A DNA stretch of 64,000 nt, taken from Runella sp. MFBS21 (lineage in GTDB: Bacteria > Bacteroidota > Bacteroidia > Cytophagales > Spirosomataceae). Numbering within the stretch: the stretch's first letter is position 1; every line of letters starts with the position of its first letter. A program made the translations under genes and the position numbers. Shown piece by piece: positions 23,253 through 32,980 of the stretch. The stretch spans positions 351,744-415,743 of the forward strand of contig NZ_JARNTW010000002.1 in assembly GCF_029433105.1 (NCBI RefSeq), in the 5' to 3' direction. The notes beneath the pieces are model-generated. The model saw only the letters and a program-made list of their open reading frames with translations. It ran no database searches and had not been told where the DNA came from.

Positions 23253-23591
23253 CTATTGACCAATCAACTGCAACTTTCCCTGCGGAATGGCTTTCCAAAG
23301 CTGATCGCGCAGGACTTGAATTTCCTGTAAAGCGCGGCTTCCTAAGGCCGTTACGGTAAAAAATCGTTTGCGGCGGCCTCCGCGTTCGGCCGTGGCTCCT
23401 CCCATTTGGGAACTCAAAAACCCTTTTTCTTCCAGTCGATACAGCGTAGCGTGTACCGCACTGATGGTAATGTTTCGCCCCGTTTGTTGCTGCAACTGCT
23501 CCCAAATAACGACGCCGTAGGCATCTTCGGAACAGCCTGCAACGACTAACAAAACGATTTCTTCAAACTCACCTAGAAAAGTTCTTTTCAT
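23253..23591 (-). CDS. PadR-family transcriptional regulator
   Basis: A 112-residue winged-helix protein: MKRTFLGEFEEIVLLVVAG, YGVVIWEQLQQQTGRNITISAVHATLYRLEEKGFLSS, then GGRRKRFFTVTALGSRAL, the canonical PadR N-terminal domain and wing. It lacks the long C-terminal domain, as in PadR-s2 proteins. It is the first gene of a two-gene operon with the FtsX permease and probably represses it. Confidence 0.88.
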   Translation of the reverse strand: MKRTFLGEFEEIVLLVVAGCSEDAYGVVIWEQLQQQTGRNITISAVHATLYRLEEKGFLSSQMGGATAERGGRRKRFFTVTALGSRALQEIQVLRDQLWKAIPQGKLQLIGQ

Positions 23592-23724
23592 TGAAATTGG
23601 GATTCAGAATGATTAGTTATAATAATGCAAATCAAATCTTGTGCCAGCCGCTAAAGTGGCTCAATTTGGCCTTTTGAAGCCTATAAAGAAGAATGAAGAT
23701 GTCCAAAAACGGACAATTGCTGTA

Positions 23725-24159
23725 CTATTGTGGACAAGTAAAAAGTACGTTTTTAGCGCCGCCGCAATTGGGGCCACCGTCTTTACCAACGCCTGGCACG
23801 CGTACTTCCAACGCTGCTTGTTGCGTAGTTTCCAATTGCTGAATCAGTTCCCACGTAATACTTTTCAAAGGGATTTTTAGCCGACGGCTCCACAGGGTAT
23901 CGAGTTGCCCCGCCGCTCGGCCAATGTCGATATAAACAAAACGTTCTTTGGGAGAACCTTGAGTCACCGCACCTAGAAAAACGGGCGAACCATCCGCCGA
24001 AGGCTTCACGCGTACCGATGCTTCAAACGTCAGGTCTTCGCCTGTTGATTTTTGTTTTTGAAGCACCGCATAGTTGTGCCCACTACCCTCCTGAATCCCA
24101 AAATCGGTAGCAGGCGTTGGTTTTTCTAAAATAATCCGAAGTTTGATTTCTCGTTCCAT
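23725..24159 (-). CDS. DUF5990 family protein
   Basis: From the Met at 24159 (MEREIKLRIILEKPT) the product has 144 residues. The sequence follows the DUF5990 family: TDFGIQEGSGHNYAVLQKQKS, FEASVRVKPSADGSPVFLGAVTQGSPKERFVYIDIG, and the ending GGPNCGGAKNVLF. Function unknown. It lies 52 bp downstream of the SUI1-like gene on the same strand, at the 3' end of the CHAT/MoxR region. Confidence 0.75.
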   Translation of the reverse strand: MEREIKLRIILEKPTPATDFGIQEGSGHNYAVLQKQKSTGEDLTFEASVRVKPSADGSPVFLGAVTQGSPKERFVYIDIGRAAGQLDTLWSRRLKIPLKSITWELIQQLETTQQAALEVRVPGVGKDGGPNCGGAKNVLFTCPQ

Positions 24160-24211
24160 GGCTTGAGTGATTTTGAGTAAATATAGAAGGGGAGCGGGCA
24201 AAATAGAAGGA

Positions 24212-24547
24212 TTAGCCTCCTGCTTTTTTGGCTTTATAACCTTTGGCAAGAAGCCAAGTTAGGATTTTGTCCCTAAAATCTCCTTGAATCAAAATTTCGC
24301 GGTCTTTGGCCGTGCCTCCTGTGCCACAGAGGGTTTTGAGTTGTTTGGCAAGGGCTTCCATATCTCCGGTTTTGCCGGTCCAGCCTCGGATGGCCGTCAC
24401 TACTTTACCGCCGCCTTTGCGCTCAAGCCAGACCTTCAATTCTTGTTGATTGGGGGCGGGCGTAGCTGCCTCTTCTTCTGAGTCGTCGTTGTATTGGAAG
24501 TCAGGGTTGGTCGAATAAACGATACCGCTGCGATTTTGTTTAGCCAT
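24212..24547 (-). CDS. yciH: SUI1/eIF1-like translation factor (YciH family)
   Basis: The 111-residue protein starts at the Met at 24547 (MAKQNRSGIVYSTNP). The SUI1 domain at the C-terminus is plain: ELKVWLERKGGGKVVTAIRGWTG, LCGTGGTAKDREILIQGDFRDKILTWLLAKGYKAKKAGG. In bacteria YciH can bind the 30S subunit and influence start-site fidelity. It is 68 bp behind the last gene of the CHAT/MoxR operon; a functional link to that system is not established. Confidence 0.85.
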   Translation of the reverse strand: MAKQNRSGIVYSTNPDFQYNDDSEEEAATPAPNQQELKVWLERKGGGKVVTAIRGWTGKTGDMEALAKQLKTLCGTGGTAKDREILIQGDFRDKILTWLLAKGYKAKKAGG

Positions 24548-24615
24548 GATTATCAAATTTGAATGCTCGAAATAGTAGTTTTTTGGTCATTTTTCAAACA
24601 GAACCCCTAAAATCG

Positions 24616-27600
24616 CTAATATTTATACAGCAAATAATTTATATCTGAATGGTCTGCCAATATACGTTTCATGCCTTCAAATGCGACTTCTATGTTTTGG
24701 TTTAATACATAATGACCATAAAAAGCCTCCGTGGCGAGTTGTGCGGTGGCGTCGTTGAGTATTCCGTCTACGCAGATGATAGGCGAATGCTTTTGAGCAT
24801 ACAGTAGCTCCGCTAATGCGTTTGAATTACTAAAATTTAAGAAAAACACCGTTCCTGTTGGGTATTCTAAAAAGAGTTTGGAAGTAGGAAGAATGTCTTT
24901 ATCCAAAAACAAGGATTCGGAAATGTGAACAATAAGATTTTTGAAAAAACTGTAAGGAAAAAAGAAGATTTCATCCGCTCTTTCTAAATAAGAACTAAAG
25001 CTAATAAATGGTAAAGATATGTAAATTGTAGCTGGGTTTTCCCAATCGTTTTTTGATAAATAAAGAAGATAATGCTCCGGATAAGGGCGGATAGAACGCT
25101 CATATTGTGTACGAATCGTGTCTATATGCGATGCTAATTTGTTTTTGGTGCATTTGTGCAATTCGGGCGGGAGATTGAGGATTGGATTGCGGCGTACATC
25201 AATAGACCGCAATTGGGGTGTTTGCGTAGCTGCGAAGGGAATGATTTCAATTTTGTTGTTTTCAAATGAAATAGATTCCAAGGCAGGGTGTCGCCACATC
25301 CACTGAGGCAGGGCCGCAATTTCGGCATCGTCGATTTTGAGATGTCGTAATTTTTGGAGGGTTGAAAGGAAAAAAGGAAGTTCTGTGATTGGGTTTTTGC
25401 TAGCGTAAAGCTTCTCTAGATTTTCAAATTGCGCTAGATTATCAGGCAATTCCGTGAGTTTGTTATTGTACAAATCAATACTTTTCAAATCAGTAAGTTC
25501 CCACACTTGCGGGGGCAGGGCTTCGAGTCCGAGGCTGCTCAAATCCAATTCTCCCGATTCTTGGGCTTTTTGCAAGCGTTTTTGTAGTTCATTTTCAAAG
25601 CCTAATTGCGCCAAATCCCTAATCCATTTGTTGAGGGCAGGTTGCCAATCTTGGTAATGTTCTTCAATTTCTCGTTCGATTTCGGGCGCAAAATTATATT
25701 TCTGAAAAAGCGATTGAGACAAAGGCTGTCGCCTCGAAAAAATCGGATAATCACGCAAAGAACTTGCTTCAAAATTGCAGTTTTCCCACAGTACACTGCA
25801 TACCACTCGATTTTCAAAGCGGTTCAAGTACGCAATAAGCTGCGAAACCTCCCCATGTCGCATAAAATCAAGGACCAAGGCTTGATTCAGAATGAACACA
25901 ATCACGTGTGCATCTCGCAGGGTGTGAAGATTGTGCTCAAATTCCTCTTCCACCAGAACGCTGTCTTTCAAGCCCGAACGGTCTTGTTTGGTAAATAAGC
26001 TAATGTCTTCTATTTCAACGTTATATAGGAGGGTTCGGAGATAAGATTGTTTGAAAATAGGAATTTGTTTTACGCTCATTCCCGACGAAACACGCACCAC
26101 TTTGAGTTTAGGGGCGTTGCGTAGGAGGGCATATTTTTCAAGGGTTTTTGTGAAGTTTTCTAAATTCATTTGCTCCCCAAAATCATCGGCAATGGTTTGT
26201 GCATCTGCTTCAAATTTTTCCGTCACAGCATTGATATAATCACAATCAAACAATAATTCTTGCCTATAAACATCATACTGCTTGCTATTGTCTAGGAAAG
26301 CAAGGTGTTGATCTCCAGATAGTTTTGGGTAAGGTAGGCGAGAGTCATTTTGAATTCTTTTAAAAACTTCACGAATAAGTCTTTGATAAGTAATAATGGG
26401 AAAATCATTAATTACACTACATATTGATTCCGTATAAAATGAAAGTCCATTGAGAATAGTTCTATTGCTTTGCAAAGCAGTTGCAATCGTAATATGCTTT
26501 TCATTATTAACAATACGCCACTCAGTATCAGTAGTAGGAATATCTAAAATGGATACTACAAAAGGATTTTGTGAACTTGCAGAGGCCAGAGCAGATTTAT
26601 ATTCTGCTTCTGAAATGTAACTTGACTCGTCCAAAGAAGAAGTGTCATGAGCAAATATTTTGTCAGGGGTATTTCCACCAGAGGTTATTACGCAAATTAC
26701 TATGTCTTGGACAGATGCTTTTTGAATTGTATCCTGTAAAGTTTGCAGGATAGCATCTTTCGTAGCTTGTTCATTAATGAGTTTTTGGATTGAATTAACT
26801 CCAAATTTTTCTTGTAAACTCCTTGTCCAGTTATCTATGTTTTGAAAAGAGGCAACTCTTTGGGAAGAGGATTCTGTAAAAAATCGGCTATTGATGCGTA
26901 CCAAAATCGCATAAATCACTCCTTGATTTTGCTCGGTGGTGGCGTTTATTTCCAAATTAGCCAAAATCTCTTTTGGAATAGCGACATTCAGGCCACTTTC
27001 GCGTGGATTTTGTAACAAATGAGCTATCGATGCAAGGGTATTTTGAGCTTCGGAAATTTGGCCTTTTTGGTATTGTTGGAGGCTTTCGCCAAGTTGAACC
27101 AGCGCCGACAACGACTCATTTTTAGGAATTGTGCTTTCGGATTGCTGTGCCCATTGATTTCGGTTTTTTACCCAACTCACAATGTAATCCCTCAGCACTT
27201 TGCTACCTGCTTCGTGTTGGCGAGTGGTGAGGAGTTGTTGTAGCAAATGCGCTACTTTTTGGGGCGATGAAATAAGTTCAGCCCCGATTTTGAGGGCTAC
27301 GGCCAGTGCTTCAGAAGGGATTTTGTCGCGGCAAAAATCCAAATAACGAAGCGTAAACTCAGCAAGTGCTGCCACCGTATCAGGCGGCAAACTTTGCCAT
27401 AAAGCAGCTCGAAGTGAAGGATATATTTCGTACAAATCATAGCCGATTTCGCGACAAAGCGGCGATAATAGCAAATCGCCAACGGCATTGATAGGAGGAG
27501 AGGTATCGGGAGTGGGATTGTTTTGACAGAAATTGAGCCAAATTTTATAGGCTAAATCAGTGGTAAGTGCTACCGGAAAGGCCGCGCAACGCGCCAACCA

Positions 27601-27699
27601 AAGATAATCGGGGGTAGGAAAATCGCGCACAAAAGCCTCCAAACGGCTGCGGTCGGTAGGGTCGGGGAGGAGGGCAATAAGGGCAGCGAGATGATTCAT
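24616..27699 (-). CDS. multi-domain conflict-system scaffold: pseudo-caspase, TIR-like, LRR, pseudo-CHAT
   Basis: A 1027-residue protein, last gene of the CHAT/MoxR/vWA operon, with its ATG overlapping the vWA stop (ATGA). My domain reading: residues 1-250 helical; 260-470 caspase-like, with IYAILVRIN, QATKDAILQTL and QDIVICVITSGG, where the catalytic His position is Gly342 (S-G-H-G becomes S-G-G-N) and the Cys position is Pro388 (ILDIPTT). Residues 530-695 are TIR-like (LRDAHVIVFILNQALVL...HGEVSQLI, possible catalytic Glu617). Residues 715-850 are leucine-rich repeats. Residues 870-1020 are CHAT-like, with Cys replaced by Ser957 (FLNFSNS) and His by Glu928. Domain calls are by eye. Confidence 0.6.
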   Translation of the reverse strand: MNHLAALIALLPDPTDRSRLEAFVRDFPTPDYLWLARCAAFPVALTTDLAYKIWLNFCQNNPTPDTSPPINAVGDLLLSPLCREIGYDLYEIYPSLRAALWQSLPPDTVAALAEFTLRYLDFCRDKIPSEALAVALKIGAELISSPQKVAHLLQQLLTTRQHEAGSKVLRDYIVSWVKNRNQWAQQSESTIPKNESLSALVQLGESLQQYQKGQISEAQNTLASIAHLLQNPRESGLNVAIPKEILANLEINATTEQNQGVIYAILVRINSRFFTESSSQRVASFQNIDNWTRSLQEKFGVNSIQKLINEQATKDAILQTLQDTIQKASVQDIVICVITSGGNTPDKIFAHDTSSLDESSYISEAEYKSALASASSQNPFVVSILDIPTTDTEWRIVNNEKHITIATALQSNRTILNGLSFYTESICSVINDFPIITYQRLIREVFKRIQNDSRLPYPKLSGDQHLAFLDNSKQYDVYRQELLFDCDYINAVTEKFEADAQTIADDFGEQMNLENFTKTLEKYALLRNAPKLKVVRVSSGMSVKQIPIFKQSYLRTLLYNVEIEDISLFTKQDRSGLKDSVLVEEEFEHNLHTLRDAHVIVFILNQALVLDFMRHGEVSQLIAYLNRFENRVVCSVLWENCNFEASSLRDYPIFSRRQPLSQSLFQKYNFAPEIEREIEEHYQDWQPALNKWIRDLAQLGFENELQKRLQKAQESGELDLSSLGLEALPPQVWELTDLKSIDLYNNKLTELPDNLAQFENLEKLYASKNPITELPFFLSTLQKLRHLKIDDAEIAALPQWMWRHPALESISFENNKIEIIPFAATQTPQLRSIDVRRNPILNLPPELHKCTKNKLASHIDTIRTQYERSIRPYPEHYLLYLSKNDWENPATIYISLPFISFSSYLERADEIFFFPYSFFKNLIVHISESLFLDKDILPTSKLFLEYPTGTVFFLNFSNSNALAELLYAQKHSPIICVDGILNDATAQLATEAFYGHYVLNQNIEVAFEGMKRILADHSDINYLLYKY

Positions 27700-28829
27700 A
27701 GTTCCAAAATCAGGCGTTTGAGTTCGTCGTTGCTAGGATAATGTACCCGTAGCAAAAAAGCCAGATAATCGGCGGCTGTTCCAGTGGTGTTTTTGACGGG
27801 ATTGAGCCATACCAATCGCTGTGTGGTATTTTTGATGGTATTTATTAAATTCAAAAAAACAGACAGCCGCTCAGTGTCAAATCGGCGACGGGCGGCTCCT
27901 GCGTCGCTGAAAAACACAATCGCCGTTTGTTTGGTACAGTTTTTCAAAATCGCCGATAAGGTTTTGACTTCTGTGTGTGAGCGATTAGTGAAAAATTTAA
28001 AATCGGTTTCTTCGGGCGAGGGATAATCATGGAAAAAATACTGTTCCGTACGCTGAATATTGGGCGTAGTTCGCACAATATCAAGCAATTGTTTTTCCCA
28101 AACTTCATAGGGCAACATCGACCCGCCGTGGTCAGAAAACCAAATCACTTGCTGTGTACCCACGTTTTGACGATGGTAAGGAAGCTTGTTGATGATGCCT
28201 TCGCGGGCTATTTGCTGTACCAAAGCCGGCACATCTAGGCGATTGGTGGTGCGTTTTTGGGTCGGAACGCGCATTTTACGCCAATTTTGTGCTGCTTTAC
28301 GTACCGTAAAAGGAATGTGTTTTTGTTCAGAAAAGATAAAACTTACTTCCTTCGCCGAAAAAGTGTGCGGTGTTTCCGCCTTCCAACCTTCTCCTTGGCC
28401 GCTGTCAATGTTGAGTGCCACTTCGACGGTATCAAAATTTACAGAGGGAGGCGAATCAGCAGATGGCGCAGGTGTTGGAGAAGGAGTAGAGGATTCAGGA
28501 GGTGGCGAAGCGACGTGCTGTAGTGAAGAGAAGGCTTCTTCTGGAATATAACTATCGGTGTTGGTTACGGAAACTTTTGAGATTTGGGATTGAAGAAATT
28601 GCGCGGGCACTTTGGCATAATAGTATTCAAACAATTCCTCAAATTCTCCGCGCTGATTAGGCCGACTTAGCCAGACGGTTTTACAGAAATTCAATAACTC
28701 TGCTTTGGTTTCAAATTTTGATAAAATAAATCCTCGCAAAAACAATTCGTATTGTTCCCAACCCAACTCCCACCCACGGCTACGTAGAGTTTGGAAAAAA
28801 TCATAAAAGAGCGCCGTTGATTTTGCCAT
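27696..28829 (-). CDS. vWA-domain protein of a MoxR-vWA system
   Basis: A 377-residue protein. The N-terminal 70 residues (WELGWEQYELFLRGF...FCKTVWLSRPNQRGEFEELF) match the front of MoxR-associated vWA proteins. A Pro/Ser-rich linker spans about 105-130. The C-terminal vWA domain has a MIDAS-like motif D233-x-G-G-S237 (FSDHGGSM) and a second acidic strand VFFSDAGAARRR. Such proteins act as the metal-dependent adaptor of the MoxR ATPase. It lies between the MoxR gene (73 bp upstream) and the scaffold gene (ATGA overlap). Confidence 0.75.
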   Translation of the reverse strand: MAKSTALFYDFFQTLRSRGWELGWEQYELFLRGFILSKFETKAELLNFCKTVWLSRPNQRGEFEELFEYYYAKVPAQFLQSQISKVSVTNTDSYIPEEAFSSLQHVASPPPESSTPSPTPAPSADSPPSVNFDTVEVALNIDSGQGEGWKAETPHTFSAKEVSFIFSEQKHIPFTVRKAAQNWRKMRVPTQKRTTNRLDVPALVQQIAREGIINKLPYHRQNVGTQQVIWFSDHGGSMLPYEVWEKQLLDIVRTTPNIQRTEQYFFHDYPSPEETDFKFFTNRSHTEVKTLSAILKNCTKQTAIVFFSDAGAARRRFDTERLSVFLNLINTIKNTTQRLVWLNPVKNTTGTAADYLAFLLRVHYPSNDELKRLILEL

Positions 28830-28902
28830 AAATTTTAAGTTGAATTTTGTTTGGGAACCCCTAAACCCCTTTCCTGTAGCCCTAACTATAGATAGCCTTC
28901 AA

Positions 28903-29922
28903 CTAACGGTTGGATTTATAATCGTCTAAAGTTTTGAAAAGTACTTCCGGAAAAAGAATGCTCGTAAGTTCTTCTTTATCATTAAGTTGAAGGCGAGATT
29001 TGTCGGTGAAATAATAATAGTGAATTACGCGAAGCCAATCCAATAGTTCACTTGTAGAGGGAAGTTTGTCGGTCGTTTGGATGCTCGACATTTTTTTGCG
29101 TAGTTCCCCAAATTGTGCAATGATACTTTCGATAAGTGACTCAGGAAGAGCTATTTCAAAAAGTTTTTCTTGCGCTTTGGCCTTAGCGGCGACAATCTTA
29201 AACAAATCATCGGGACTCGGAAAATCGATGTAATGAAACACGCAACGGCGCAAAAAAGCGCTAGGAAGGTCTTTTTCGTCGTTGCTTGTGATGATGATAA
29301 TGGGCGATTGTTTGGCTTTGATTTCTTCGTTGGTTTCGGGAATAAAAAAGCGTTTTTGGTCTAGCTCAAGCAACAAATCGTTGGGAAAATCGAGGTCGGC
29401 TTTGTCGATTTCGTCGATGAGCAAAACGGCGGGAGCTTGGGGCGTAGAGTACAAAAAAGCCTTGCCCAATGCGCCAAATCTGCGGTATTTTTTGAGGTCT
29501 TCATTTTCTATCAAGTCTTCTCCTCTTGGAATATTGGCCTCGCGAAGGCGGGCCAAGTGGTCAAATTGATAAAGCCCTTCGGTGACTTTGGTGGTAGATT
29601 TGATAAACCACTCAAAATAATACCGCCGATACTGCCGTCCGTACATTTCGTAGGCCAAAGCCTGCGCCAAGCGCGTTTTGCCCGACCCTGGCTCTCCCAT
29701 CAGAAGTAGAGGGCGTCCTAGCAAGCGGGCGTATTCGACGGCGGCCACTAGCTCCTTACTTGGAAAATACGCCGGAATTACTTCCTCGATTTTGTCGTCT
29801 TTTTGGCTTTTTTCGGCGATTTTCTCTTCTATTTCATCATTACTTGGCAGTTTATAGCGTAGTTTGATGGTTTCGTTGAGCTTTTCACCTTGGTAGGTGA
29901 GTTTGTTATTGGAGAGTATCAT
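28903..29922 (-). CDS. MoxR-family AAA+ ATPase
   Basis: A 339-residue ATPase beginning at the Met at 29922 (MILSNNKLTYQGE), which overlaps the CHAT gene stop as ATGA. Walker A is GEPGSGKT (about residues 76-83), Walker B VLLIDEIDKAD, sensor 1 IIIITSNDEKDLPSAFLRRC with the arginine-finger region. This is the MoxR/CoxD/YehL-type helicase-like ATPase that remodels a partner together with a vWA protein. Position and overlap tie it to the CHAT and vWA genes. Confidence 0.88.
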   Translation of the reverse strand: MILSNNKLTYQGEKLNETIKLRYKLPSNDEIEEKIAEKSQKDDKIEEVIPAYFPSKELVAAVEYARLLGRPLLLMGEPGSGKTRLAQALAYEMYGRQYRRYYFEWFIKSTTKVTEGLYQFDHLARLREANIPRGEDLIENEDLKKYRRFGALGKAFLYSTPQAPAVLLIDEIDKADLDFPNDLLLELDQKRFFIPETNEEIKAKQSPIIIITSNDEKDLPSAFLRRCVFHYIDFPSPDDLFKIVAAKAKAQEKLFEIALPESLIESIIAQFGELRKKMSSIQTTDKLPSTSELLDWLRVIHYYYFTDKSRLQLNDKEELTSILFPEVLFKTLDDYKSNR

Positions 29923-31847
29923 GAGAGTTCGAGGGCTTTGGACACGATGATATTGTAATCCGAATTTAAAGATTTGCAAATTTCAATCATTGCCGTTTTG
30001 CGCTGATTGCCTACAATCTTGTTTTTGTTGGTGATGAGTTCCTGAAAACGATGGTAGGTTTTTTCTTTGCTAAAATACCAATCATTGTACTCATTTTCGG
30101 AGAGTGGACTGACGGGCGATATTTTTTCAATCTGAACCGAAGGTAAATCTATGGCACTAGGTATAGGCAGAGAGTAAGGTTCGTAATTTAAGGCAAAAAT
30201 CATAAGCGGAAACTGAATGCTATAATTTGCGTTCTGAGTGCGTTCTTCATACGTTTTGACAAGTTCATTCCAAAATTCTTTGAGAATCGTTTGTTGATAT
30301 AATTCGAGGGTGGAAAAATTTACATTCTCAAAAACCAATACGAAAGGTTCTTTTTTATCTAAAATGGCATTAACGCAGGTTTTTATCATATCGGACTTAG
30401 GGGTGGTACGGAGCAATTGGATGAGAGCATACCCAAACGAAAAAGCGTCGCTAATCATGGGATTATCAGCTATTTTGAGAACCTCAACTTTGACGTTGGT
30501 TCCAATGCCCATTCGTTTCTTGATTTTTTTTACCAGCAAGGTTTGGGCGCAGTTGGGACTGCCTTCAATGAGCGTAAAATATAATTTGGGCAGGTTGGCA
30601 GAATACCGTTGTTTTTCGTTTTCAAAATCCAAATCTTCTAAATCGCGACTCAGTAAGTCTTCCGAAACTGAGAAGAAATTGGTTAAATCAGGAAGTAAAA
30701 TTTTTTCAAATTTTTCGAGACGTGTCTGTAGATGAGCCTTTTTGATGATACCGTCGATTGTATTTTCGTTGGTAAAAAAAGCCGAATAGTTTTGAGCACT
30801 GGGAATAACCAAATGCGGGCCAATCCCTTGGGTAGCCAGAAAACCAAAAGCAGCTCCGTGCGAGGCATCAACGTTGATAAATATATGATTTTTTTTCTCT
30901 AACAACCCTATTGCACTTTGGTAGAACACACCTAAATCAATCGCATAATCTTCATTAAGAAAATGAACAATCACGCTGGCTGCATTCCATTCTTTGATTA
31001 GGTCTTCATGAGAAGGATTAGTTTGTTCGTCGATTTCCCAGAGACTATTGATGAGTATTGGAAATTTGGGATGATTGCTATTGAGAGCAAGAAGGTCATA
31101 GAATTCACGTTTTAATTTGCCATACAGACAAAAAACCTTTTTACGGTTATCATCTTTTGCTTCGCTCAAAATATACTTTTTGGGAGGTAACAGACACCAA
31201 TTTTGAATATCTTCAGTGGCATTTTCATAATATATCTCCCACGCAAACTCTTGGCTTTGAGCGTTAGGAGGAGATTTTAGCCCTCGAAAATGATACTTCT
31301 TAGAAAGTGAATCTGGAGTGGTTTTAAAAAAAATACTGGTGTCTTCGAAGGCTGCGAGTAGGGTTTTGCCTGCTTGTCCGCCGAGGGTTTCATAAAACTT
31401 AGCGGCAATCAATGAAGCATCATTGTCACTGACTTTGTCGGTAGTACCTACCACAATAGGCACGCCTGCGTTGCTAAGTTCTTTGGCGATTTCGGCTGAA
31501 TAACAGCTGTTTAAGAAAATGAATTTAAGGTTTTTTTGATTTTTGAGGTAGGCTACCAAATCTTCTTTTTCGAGTAAAGTAGGTACGCCATTTTGTTGGC
31601 CGATGAGGGCTTCTTTGTTTGAGTGCCCAATGTAATGTAACATCCTGATTTGGGATGAAATATAGGCGTCGTTAAATTCAGTGGCTAGTTTTTTGAACGA
31701 AAAGTCGGAAAGTTCACGCCAATTGGCATAGCCTTTTTGGCGGGCTTTGGTAAGGGCATTTTGAATAGAATCTATTTCTTTATCCACTTGAGGCAAGGGA
31801 TTGGAAGGTATATTGGCATGACCTATGATAATAATACTGGGCATCAT
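29919..31847 (-). CDS. CHAT protease with TIR-like and degenerate P-loop (iSTAND-like) regions
   Basis: A 642-residue protein, first gene of the operon (start 31847 or the next Met at 31844). Residues 1-170 form a CHAT/caspase-like protease with an intact His-Cys dyad: His75 (HYIGHSN) and Cys115 (FLNSCYS), followed by GVPIVVGTTDKVSDNDASLIAAKFYETL. Residues 235-345 look TIR-like (VFCLYGKLKREF...NAASVIVHFLNEDYA). Residues 420-560 resemble an inactive STAND ATPase: EGSPNCAQTLL in place of a P-loop, lacking the Lys, and PFVLVFENVN...EFWNELV. CHAT proteases in defence systems cleave host proteins or gasdermins. Confidence 0.75.
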   Translation of the reverse strand: MMPSIIIIGHANIPSNPLPQVDKEIDSIQNALTKARQKGYANWRELSDFSFKKLATEFNDAYISSQIRMLHYIGHSNKEALIGQQNGVPTLLEKEDLVAYLKNQKNLKFIFLNSCYSAEIAKELSNAGVPIVVGTTDKVSDNDASLIAAKFYETLGGQAGKTLLAAFEDTSIFFKTTPDSLSKKYHFRGLKSPPNAQSQEFAWEIYYENATEDIQNWCLLPPKKYILSEAKDDNRKKVFCLYGKLKREFYDLLALNSNHPKFPILINSLWEIDEQTNPSHEDLIKEWNAASVIVHFLNEDYAIDLGVFYQSAIGLLEKKNHIFINVDASHGAAFGFLATQGIGPHLVIPSAQNYSAFFTNENTIDGIIKKAHLQTRLEKFEKILLPDLTNFFSVSEDLLSRDLEDLDFENEKQRYSANLPKLYFTLIEGSPNCAQTLLVKKIKKRMGIGTNVKVEVLKIADNPMISDAFSFGYALIQLLRTTPKSDMIKTCVNAILDKKEPFVLVFENVNFSTLELYQQTILKEFWNELVKTYEERTQNANYSIQFPLMIFALNYEPYSLPIPSAIDLPSVQIEKISPVSPLSENEYNDWYFSKEKTYHRFQELITNKNKIVGNQRKTAMIEICKSLNSDYNIIVSKALELS

Positions 31848-31944
31848 CTATATGGAATTCTTCATTTGTAAAAGGCTGTTCAATTTTGTTTTTAATGAAC
31901 CAACAAGTTACCAATTTTTGATGAGATATTGAAAAATGTCCCGC

Positions 31945-32134
31945 GTAGAGACGTTGCACTGCAACGTCTCTACTGCAACGTCTTATTGCTGCAACGTTAC
32001 ATTTACAACGTTGCACTGCAACGTCTCTACTGCAACGTCTCTTTGTGATGATGTTATAGATTGACACCGTTGCATTGCAACATCTTTTTGTAATTGACAA
32101 TGATGTAGAACAACAACGTTGCAGTGCAACGTTG
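31945..32134. repeat. cluster of REP-like palindromes (GTTGCA-x-TGCAAC)
   Basis: Four palindromes with the same core: a perfect 29-bp one at 31945-31973 (arms GTAGAGACGTTGCA), then 32008-32024, 32069-32081 and a perfect 21-bp one at 32114-32134. Extra half-sites CTACTGCAACGTCT lie at about 31970 and 32028, so one stretch is a direct duplication 57-58 bp apart. The cluster fills most of the 362-bp gap between the CHAT operon and the divergent gasdermin-like gene, and no gene is visible in it. Confidence 0.85.
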
Positions 32135-32209
32135 CTACGGAATTCTGGTGTTGTTATTTATGGAATAAAATGTTACCTTTCTATTCCAAAAGATTTAACA
32201 GATTTCGTT

Positions 32210-32980
32210 ATGAATATTCATCAATTTTATCTTAAACACATAGCCAAGCAGACGGGCTATCGTGCTACTTGGGAGCCTAATCGACCGCTGTTTGTGGGTG
32301 CGATTGGTAAATTAGAAAGAGGTGTTTTTACGATTTTTACCAATCTCGAAAAAGAGGGTATCATCCCCGAAGTAGTTGAAGATGAGACCGAAGGGTTTTG
32401 GGACTATACTTCCTATGATTCGGTATCAATCAATTTCAAATTGGCTGGACAAGCGCCTCTAGCGGGCAGTGCACTTACAGAGGCAGATGCGGGTGTTACG
32501 ATTGATTTCAAGAATAATGAGGCAGTGGTGTTTCAGGCCGATAAAACCCTCACTCACCAAATCATCAACATGGCCGAAATCGAAAAAGCTATCATTGAAA
32601 AATACCGAAAAAAAGAATGGCCCAAAGATTGGCTGATCGTAGTGCAGCTTATCGAAGCCGAATCGGCCACTATTATTATCTCCAACAGCCCTAGCAATCA
32701 GATTGATTTAAAGGCAGAAGCCAATGTAGGAACCTCTCATTTGAAACTAACCGACGCCTCGCTTGGGCTACATCTAGTAAGAGAGCAAGGAAGTAGCTTT
32801 AAGATTTTGGCTAAGAATGGAATCACACCTCTTTACCGAGTGATGGGGATTAGGCATCCGCTTTTTGGAAAACCCGGCCTTTCGACTAAAAGCCTTACTG
32901 AAGAAACGGACGAAGTATTGGAAGTGCAGGACTTTGACCCCGAAGAACTAAACAGCGTAGATGGAGAAACAAATGGGTAG
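32210..32980 (+). CDS. gasdermin-like protein (candidate pore former) beside the CHAT operon
   Basis: From the Met at 32210 the product has 256 residues; upstream codons belong to the repeat region. No signal peptide or transmembrane helix. The pattern is long amphipathic strands: SVSINFKLAG, AGVTIDFKNNEAVVFQADKTL, a helix (IINMAEIEKAIIEKY), DWLIVVQLIEAESATIIIS, QIDLKAEANV, SSFKILAKNGITPLYRVMGI. An acidic tail of about 40 residues ends it. That order and the short tail resemble bacterial gasdermins, which CHAT or caspase-like neighbours activate by clipping the tail. Against it: no Cys near the N-terminus for palmitoylation. The family call is inference. Confidence 0.45.
   Translation: MNIHQFYLKHIAKQTGYRATWEPNRPLFVGAIGKLERGVFTIFTNLEKEGIIPEVVEDETEGFWDYTSYDSVSINFKLAGQAPLAGSALTEADAGVTIDFKNNEAVVFQADKTLTHQIINMAEIEKAIIEKYRKKEWPKDWLIVVQLIEAESATIIISNSPSNQIDLKAEANVGTSHLKLTDASLGLHLVREQGSSFKILAKNGITPLYRVMGIRHPLFGKPGLSTKSLTEETDEVLEVQDFDPEELNSVDGETNG

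Follow-up and report, generated by a model that had tools for sequence, protein, structure and literature searches.

A predicted vWA-MoxR-iSTAND conflict operon of Runella with an active-looking CHAT protease and an effector carrying degenerate protease domains

We examined a four-gene operon of Runella sp. MFBS21 within a 64,000-nucleotide stretch of contig NZ_JARNTW010000002.1 (positions 351,744 to 415,743; the whole stretch is referred to as the window, and coordinates are counted from its first base). The operon encodes a CHAT-iSTAND protein, a MoxR AAA+ ATPase, a CoxE-like von Willebrand factor A (vWA) protein and a large multidomain effector, and is very probably a vWA-MoxR-iSTAND ternary conflict system, as judged from sequence, fold and gene neighbourhood. 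An earlier, sequence-only reading had described four tightly coupled minus-strand genes with ATGA overlaps, and the open reading frame (ORF) map confirmed this arrangement: an ATGA overlap joins the CHAT/MoxR pair as well as the vWA/effector pair, while the gap between the MoxR and vWA genes measures 73 bases. The genes and their parts are as follows.

29919..31847, minus strand: CHAT-middle-iSTAND protein, 642 aa; predicted third component of the ternary system
31230..31847, minus strand: active-looking CHAT protease domain, residues 1-206; His75 and Cys115 conserved in 11/11
30645..31160, minus strand: middle region of the CHAT protein, residues 230-401, allele-swapped
29922..30644, minus strand: iSTAND region of the CHAT protein, residues 402-642, allele-swapped
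28903..29922, minus strand: MoxR AAA+ ATPase, 339 aa counted from the ATG
27696..28829, minus strand: CoxE-like vWA protein, 377 aa; Asp233, Ser237 and Asp309 invariant in 16/16
24616..27699, minus strand: effector, 1027 aa, with vWA-L, pseudo-caspase, a region of unassigned fold, leucine-rich repeats (LRR) and degenerate CHAT
26935..27699, minus strand: vWA-L-type, predicted helical linker domain, effector residues 1-255
26335..26934, minus strand: pseudo-caspase, effector residues ~256-455; Cys lost in 17/17, His lost in the window clade (5/17)
25600..26139, minus strand: conserved effector region 521-700, no fold assigned
25165..25599, minus strand: LRR, effector residues ~701-845; conserved, free of allele swaps
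24619..25164, minus strand: degenerate CHAT domain, effector residues ~846-1027; Ser at the Cys position

Components of the operon and recurrence in relatives

Kaur et al. 2020 (PMC7159879) distinguished four classes of MoxR-vWA ternary systems. In the iSTAND class the vWA is CoxE-like and is followed by a variable effector, and the third component is an inactive STAND protein whose N-terminus bears a peptidase, TIR or adaptor domain. As described by Kaur et al. 2021 (PMC8195603), the effectors are attached via an alpha-helical linker termed vWA-L; in a minority of the iSTAND systems this linker opens a gene of its own beside the vWA. In the available portions of both papers MoxR-vWA is viewed as an ATP-driven gate and iSTAND as the probable sensor arm, and a role of the class in defence or cell death is given as a prediction only. 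The window operon shares with these systems the MoxR, the CoxE-like vWA, the iSTAND with an N-terminal peptidase (here a CHAT domain fused N-terminal to iSTAND, as the class definition asks) and the variable effector, which is joined through a vWA-L-type domain in the next gene. It differs in that the peptidase is a CHAT domain and the effector has two dead caspase-superfamily domains around the LRR. The word CHAT is absent from the main text of PMC7159879 and 'CHAT domain' from the text of PMC8195603, and neither a paired dead CHAT nor a CHAT-iSTAND fusion was found in the available portions of the two papers.

The CHAT domain of the 642-aa protein was recognised by Pfam at 27 bits, above the cut-off of 24, and both residues of its His75-Cys115 dyad, which the sequence-only reading had pointed out, are kept in 11/11 aligned sequences; by these catalytic residues the domain is an active-looking, presumably live, caspase-like protease. 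SAVED-CHAT belongs to type III CRISPR. Compared with SAVED-CHAT (8tl0), the window protein has no SAVED family among its Pfam matches, and activation would here go via iSTAND and MoxR-vWA. AlphaFold confidence falls below 50 over most of the middle of the protein. An iSTAND-like part had also been proposed from the sequence, and this was borne out when a profile of the C-terminal (iSTAND) region matched cyanobacterial genes upstream of MoxR, including one that Pfam calls iSTAND at 1.5e-31 (L008, profile match 4.7e-11). Three more matched this profile and were taken without a Pfam scan (L014, 4.9e-10; L009, 1e-7; L018, 2.2e-6).

The Walker motifs of MoxR are intact, as had been stated, with Walker A, Walker B and the arginine finger all present in the alignment. 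Pfam gave AAA_5 at 45.8 bits, and the best PDB relative of the alignment was midasin. Other matches to MoxR were weak: NCBIfam MadB scored 90.5 bits, far under its cut-off of 475, and PADLOC returned weak cross-matches alone (best 1e-5). When compared with CoxD-like copies (VMAP MoxR proteins lay outside this comparison), the window MoxR has about 48 more N-terminal residues. The suspected motif of the metal ion-dependent adhesion site (MIDAS) type in the vWA protein likewise held, Asp233 and Asp309 of the metal site, plus Ser237, being invariant in 16/16 sequences, and the N-terminal part of this protein can be aligned with relatives.

To follow the start of the effector, a linker profile was built from six sequences, namely residues 1-255 of the window effector and of five relatives. 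The linker domain adjoins or is fused to vWA in 25/25 loci (L003-L027; one ORF intervenes in L005) that were recovered with the vWA alignment alone, of which 23 are cyanobacterial and 21 have a recognised MoxR. Conversely, among loci found by the linker itself (L120-L125), MoxR and vWA lie upstream of the linker in 6/6 (one opposite-strand ORF intervenes in L121), and in L101 and L102 the vWA, linker and effector are fused. In a reverse test against 390 genomes of the order, 11 were matched by the linker: four Runella, six from other families and one weak match (G525, E 6.6e-4). Nothing was found for the linker in the PDB by sequence (best E 0.29). We suggest that residues 1-255 correspond to the published vWA-L type, based on their position, their role and a predicted helicity of low confidence; the idea that they form a new domain was dropped once the published vWA-L was found.

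The operon was found to recur. In a family set of 222 genomes, a vWA of the window kind (best score >240 bits) was detected in six (the window's own G000, and G161, G164, G172, G088 and G106), and the same six carry a CHAT-family match within a few kb of the vWA. The order CHAT-iSTAND, MoxR, vWA, effector is intact in G161, G164 and G172, while a single protein, of 1539 aa in G088 and 1607 aa in G106, combines the vWA with the effector head. The complete order is thus present in 4/13 Runella genomes, the window's own counted; the loci of relatives include those of R. zeae DSM 19591 (L001) and R. aurantiaca (L002). Because the genes recur in the same order, the lack of co-occurrence that the sequence-only reading had named as grounds for its own refutation does not apply, and its proposal of an Aravind-type MoxR-vWA conflict operon agrees with both this recurrence and the published iSTAND class. 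Its view of the fourth gene as an added scaffold is better replaced by the variable effector expected of the class, separately encoded on a vWA-L-type linker. The remaining vWA matches in the family score at most 128.6 bits, and three such loci mapped by BLAST (L103, L108 and L104, the last from the window's own genome) showed no CHAT, iSTAND or vWA-L-type gene. As the class predicts, the effector cassettes of relatives are varied, with LRR-Roc-COR-TIR, LRR-TIR, caspase, FGE-sulfatase, pentapeptide and AAA forms by Pfam; that of L011 was scanned with no Pfam match.

Several of the related loci have features of their own. LRR-Roc-COR GTPase effectors stand on a vWA-L-type domain at L102:5094-9917 and L120:9360-13505; that of L102 is fused with vWA and TIR in the 1607-aa protein, a case of a bacterial Roco protein joined to MoxR-vWA. 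In G106 the first system has beside it a second CHAT-MoxR pair, which is divergently oriented (L102:16481-19101). In the relative P0035 the vWA-L-type domain of the effector is accompanied by a caspase that is intact and by a GDSL/SGNH domain, in place of the pseudo-caspase and LRR.

Degenerate protease domains and mosaic alleles

Pfam detected LRRs in the effector, in line with the sequence-only reading, together with a sub-threshold Peptidase_C14. The caspase-like part that had been proposed there does show caspase-like homology but is catalytically dead, with the catalytic Cys absent in 17/17 sequences and the His also lost in the window clade (5/17). Since PMC7159879 describes about 70% of the caspase domains that occupy the effector position in VMAP systems as inactive, an inactive caspase is expected there.

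The C-terminus of the effector is a pseudoprotease by its aligned residues, a degenerate CHAT domain that has lost the catalytic Cys. Although Pfam sees no CHAT in this part, 11 of the 15 clusters matched by its profile were CHAT, compared with 15 CHAT clusters among 478 in the background (Fisher 2.7e-16; best single match to CHAT, E 2.3e-6), and Ser replaces the catalytic Cys in 17/17 rows that reach the position (one of the 18 rows stops short). The background consisted of the ORFs of the retrieved loci, among which CHAT loci are frequent because CHAT was the target of one of the searches; the matches were compared against this same background. A control profile of the CHAT-protein middle gave a mild enrichment (2/6, Fisher 0.025), both matches being CHAT-protein orthologues, from L101 and L102. 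The profile scan is the evidence used here, rather than hhalign, for which CHAT against the effector C-terminus was the best of 21 pairs (P 0.008) and not significant alone. Among the best 50 rows of a structure search, no CHAT was listed for the effector C-terminus and no TIR for region 521-700; as the caspase part fills both lists, this is no argument against either. The TIR-like parts of the sequence-only reading found no support: hhalign against four real TIRs gave 1.0% for effector 521-700 and 0.6% for the CHAT-protein middle, with poor AlphaFold models of both parts. Effector 521-700 and the CHAT-protein middle also matched each other at a probability of 0.6%.

Alleles of the window and R. 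zeae were compared by counting synonymous differences per site in 40-codon blocks. The zones of allele replacement are, by this comparison of sequences, the middle/iSTAND part of the CHAT protein and the dead-protease zones of the effector, with MoxR, vWA, vWA-L and LRR spared. MoxR and vWA are 97% and 92% identical to R. zeae, respectively, at 0.10-0.47 synonymous differences per site, and residues 1-240 of the CHAT protein are 82-95% identical. From block 241 onward, all blocks of the CHAT protein show 0.72-0.85 synonymous differences and 19-70% identity. In the effector, blocks 281-360, 401-480 and 881-960 reach 0.60-0.77 synonymous differences per site; blocks 241-280, 481-520, 841-880 and 961-1000 are 33-75% identical with synonymous counts that are not raised (0.31-0.34), and within the variable caspase part, block 361-400 is 98% identical. 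The near-saturated synonymous sites of the raised blocks suggest the import of old, divergent segments more than recent point mutation. The LRR is among the least variable parts (88-100% identity per 40-aa block), and its position outside the swapped parts argues against the LRR as a variable sensor. Similar mosaics were seen between other alleles: between two CHAT proteins of R. zeae, P0038 and P0041, identity is 100% across the CHAT domain and the middle and 55% across iSTAND, and P0030 and P0023 are 45% identical in vWA-L, 84% in 401-520 and 88% in the LRR.

Insertion site in Runella

The four genes occupy the interval from SUI1 to a desaturase/enolase-like block (window 23725-32980; syntenic loci L140-L149), which is a variable hot spot in Runella.

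24212..24556, minus strand: SUI1/YciH-like gene, a conserved neighbour that marks the insertion site; outside the system

Together with the DUF5990 gene, SUI1 lies downstream of the effector as a neighbour and not as part of the system. The SUI1 gene was found in 12/13 Runella genomes and the interval was mapped in eleven (G169 and G171 lay outside the mapping). In the window and in R. zeae it holds the four genes. In G161 and G164 the MoxR operon is preceded by a three-gene module encoding a CHAT protein of 584 aa, an nSTAND1 NTPase of 960 aa and an amidase-caspase-GDSL protein of 1283-1288 aa (the desaturase side of G164 is out of view), and G170 has the three-gene module alone, with a CHAT protein of 625 aa and an NTPase of 1213 aa. 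Neither system is present in G162, G163, G165, G166, G167 and G168, where the largest ORF between SUI1 and desaturase is 379 aa; these appear to be empty sites. The CHAT / nSTAND1 NTPase / Amidase_2-caspase-GDSL module (L098:277-8799 and L148:1026-10430), the third protein of which is covered by the PADLOC caspase model in L098 (1.9e-62), is a candidate for a separate proteolytic defence module. Palindromic repeats (core GTAGAGACGTTGCACTGCAACGTCTCTAC) were observed at 31944-32153, between the CHAT start and a divergent hypothetical gene.

Proposed mechanism, alternatives and implications

We infer, in line with the sensor-gated protease of the sequence-only reading, that the operon probably acts as a gated protease, in which MoxR-vWA and iSTAND release the CHAT protease upon sensing. 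At rest, MoxR-vWA would keep the CHAT-iSTAND protein and the vWA-L-docked effector in an off complex. An invader signal would act on the CHAT protein at its middle/iSTAND part, which varies between alleles; an ATP-driven rearrangement by MoxR would then free the CHAT protease, and the freed protease may cut the complex and cell proteins, so that growth stops or the cell dies. The two dead protease domains of the effector may either pair with CHAT to control it or act as a lure for protease-attacking factors of the invader, and the constant LRR would be a scaffold rather than a variable sensor. An analogy for the control of CHAT by a dead domain is the control of caspase-8 by c-FLIP.

A number of results weigh against this picture or its parts. 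VWA_CoxE scored 24.5 bits on the vWA protein, under the Pfam cut-off of 26.4, and iSTAND PF19995 scored 20.6 bits on the CHAT protein with a cut-off of 24; a newer precomputed Pfam does place P0036, which is the window's own protein, and P0046 in PF19995. The iSTAND-region profile matched other Pfam-called iSTAND genes weakly (L101, 0.004; L015, 0.03; L122, 0.06), and those of L120 and L123 were absent from the best 46 of its 61 matches. In a phylum-wide sample the linker alignment matched 2/395 genomes, both Runella, so that either the profile is narrow or the system is rare. The CHAT, vWA and LRR proteins had no PADLOC match at E values of up to 1. The AlphaFold model of the effector is poor (mean pLDDT 53.5; 36-63 per block in region 521-700). 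The flanking PadR and DUF5990 genes (23253-24249) have synonymous divergences (dS) of 1.11 and 0.86 from R. zeae at low nonsynonymous divergence (dN); replacement is hence not unique to the operon. As for the literature, the titles and abstract openings listed (most subscription journals and bioRxiv lay outside this search) pointed to no experiment on a system of this kind and did not mention the operon.

The same class could also work in the opposite direction, with the vWA-side effector (LRR, pseudo-caspase and degenerate CHAT) as the sensor and the CHAT of the iSTAND protein as the executioner, as proposed for systems targeted by diversity-generating retroelements (DGR) in PMC10907252, the available portion of which argues for the vWA side as sensor. 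With these DGR systems the operon shares the MoxR-vWA core and a variable module on the vWA side; it differs from what is available of their description in that its variation is whole-segment replacement, mostly with raised synonymous divergence, as judged from the allele comparison alone. The LRRs and lectin-fold FGE domains of relatives sit on the vWA-L side, and the pseudo-caspase and C-terminal zones are allele-swapped, as a sensing effector would suggest; however, with an LRR that varies so little (88-100% per 40-aa block) and an iSTAND side where swapping is no less strong, we regard this direction as possible but rather unlikely.

More speculative still is a further role for the effector, as an integrated decoy or pseudoprotease regulator. 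Its dead C14-like and CHAT-like domains on a constant LRR rod would be swapped as cassettes among strains, and with them the iSTAND half of the live CHAT protein, and invader proteins that attack or mimic proteases would bind the dead copies, by which the live CHAT is switched on via MoxR-vWA.

A reading as a housekeeping maturation pair (CoxD/CoxE-like MoxR-vWA) next to unrelated genes, to which the CoxE-like vWA and a similar pair elsewhere in the same genome (G000:C17) might point, is very improbable given that the 20-kb BLAST map of that other pair has no CHAT, iSTAND or vWA-L-type gene, that the four-gene order recurs with fusions of vWA and vWA-L, and that presence is patchy (4/13 Runella genomes). 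A beta-propeller or VMAP ternary system in place of iSTAND is hardly credible either, as the bpMoxR match on MoxR (18.6 bits) lies under its cut-off of 27, no beta-propeller Pfam family was found up to E 10 for the vWA or effector protein, the 377-aa vWA protein consists of an N-terminal part and the vWA domain alone, and no VMAP-named family was found up to E 10 for any of the four proteins (for MoxR among the best 25 of 27 matches), a profile absence being a weak argument.

Two published proposals differ as to the arm by which MoxR-vWA ternary systems detect the invader. The natural alleles of this operon, with replacement zones that spare MoxR, vWA, vWA-L and LRR, are ready-made chimeras for specificity mapping, and the apparent presence of a live and a dead CHAT in one operon would allow a direct test of whether pseudoproteases control caspase-like enzymes in bacteria.

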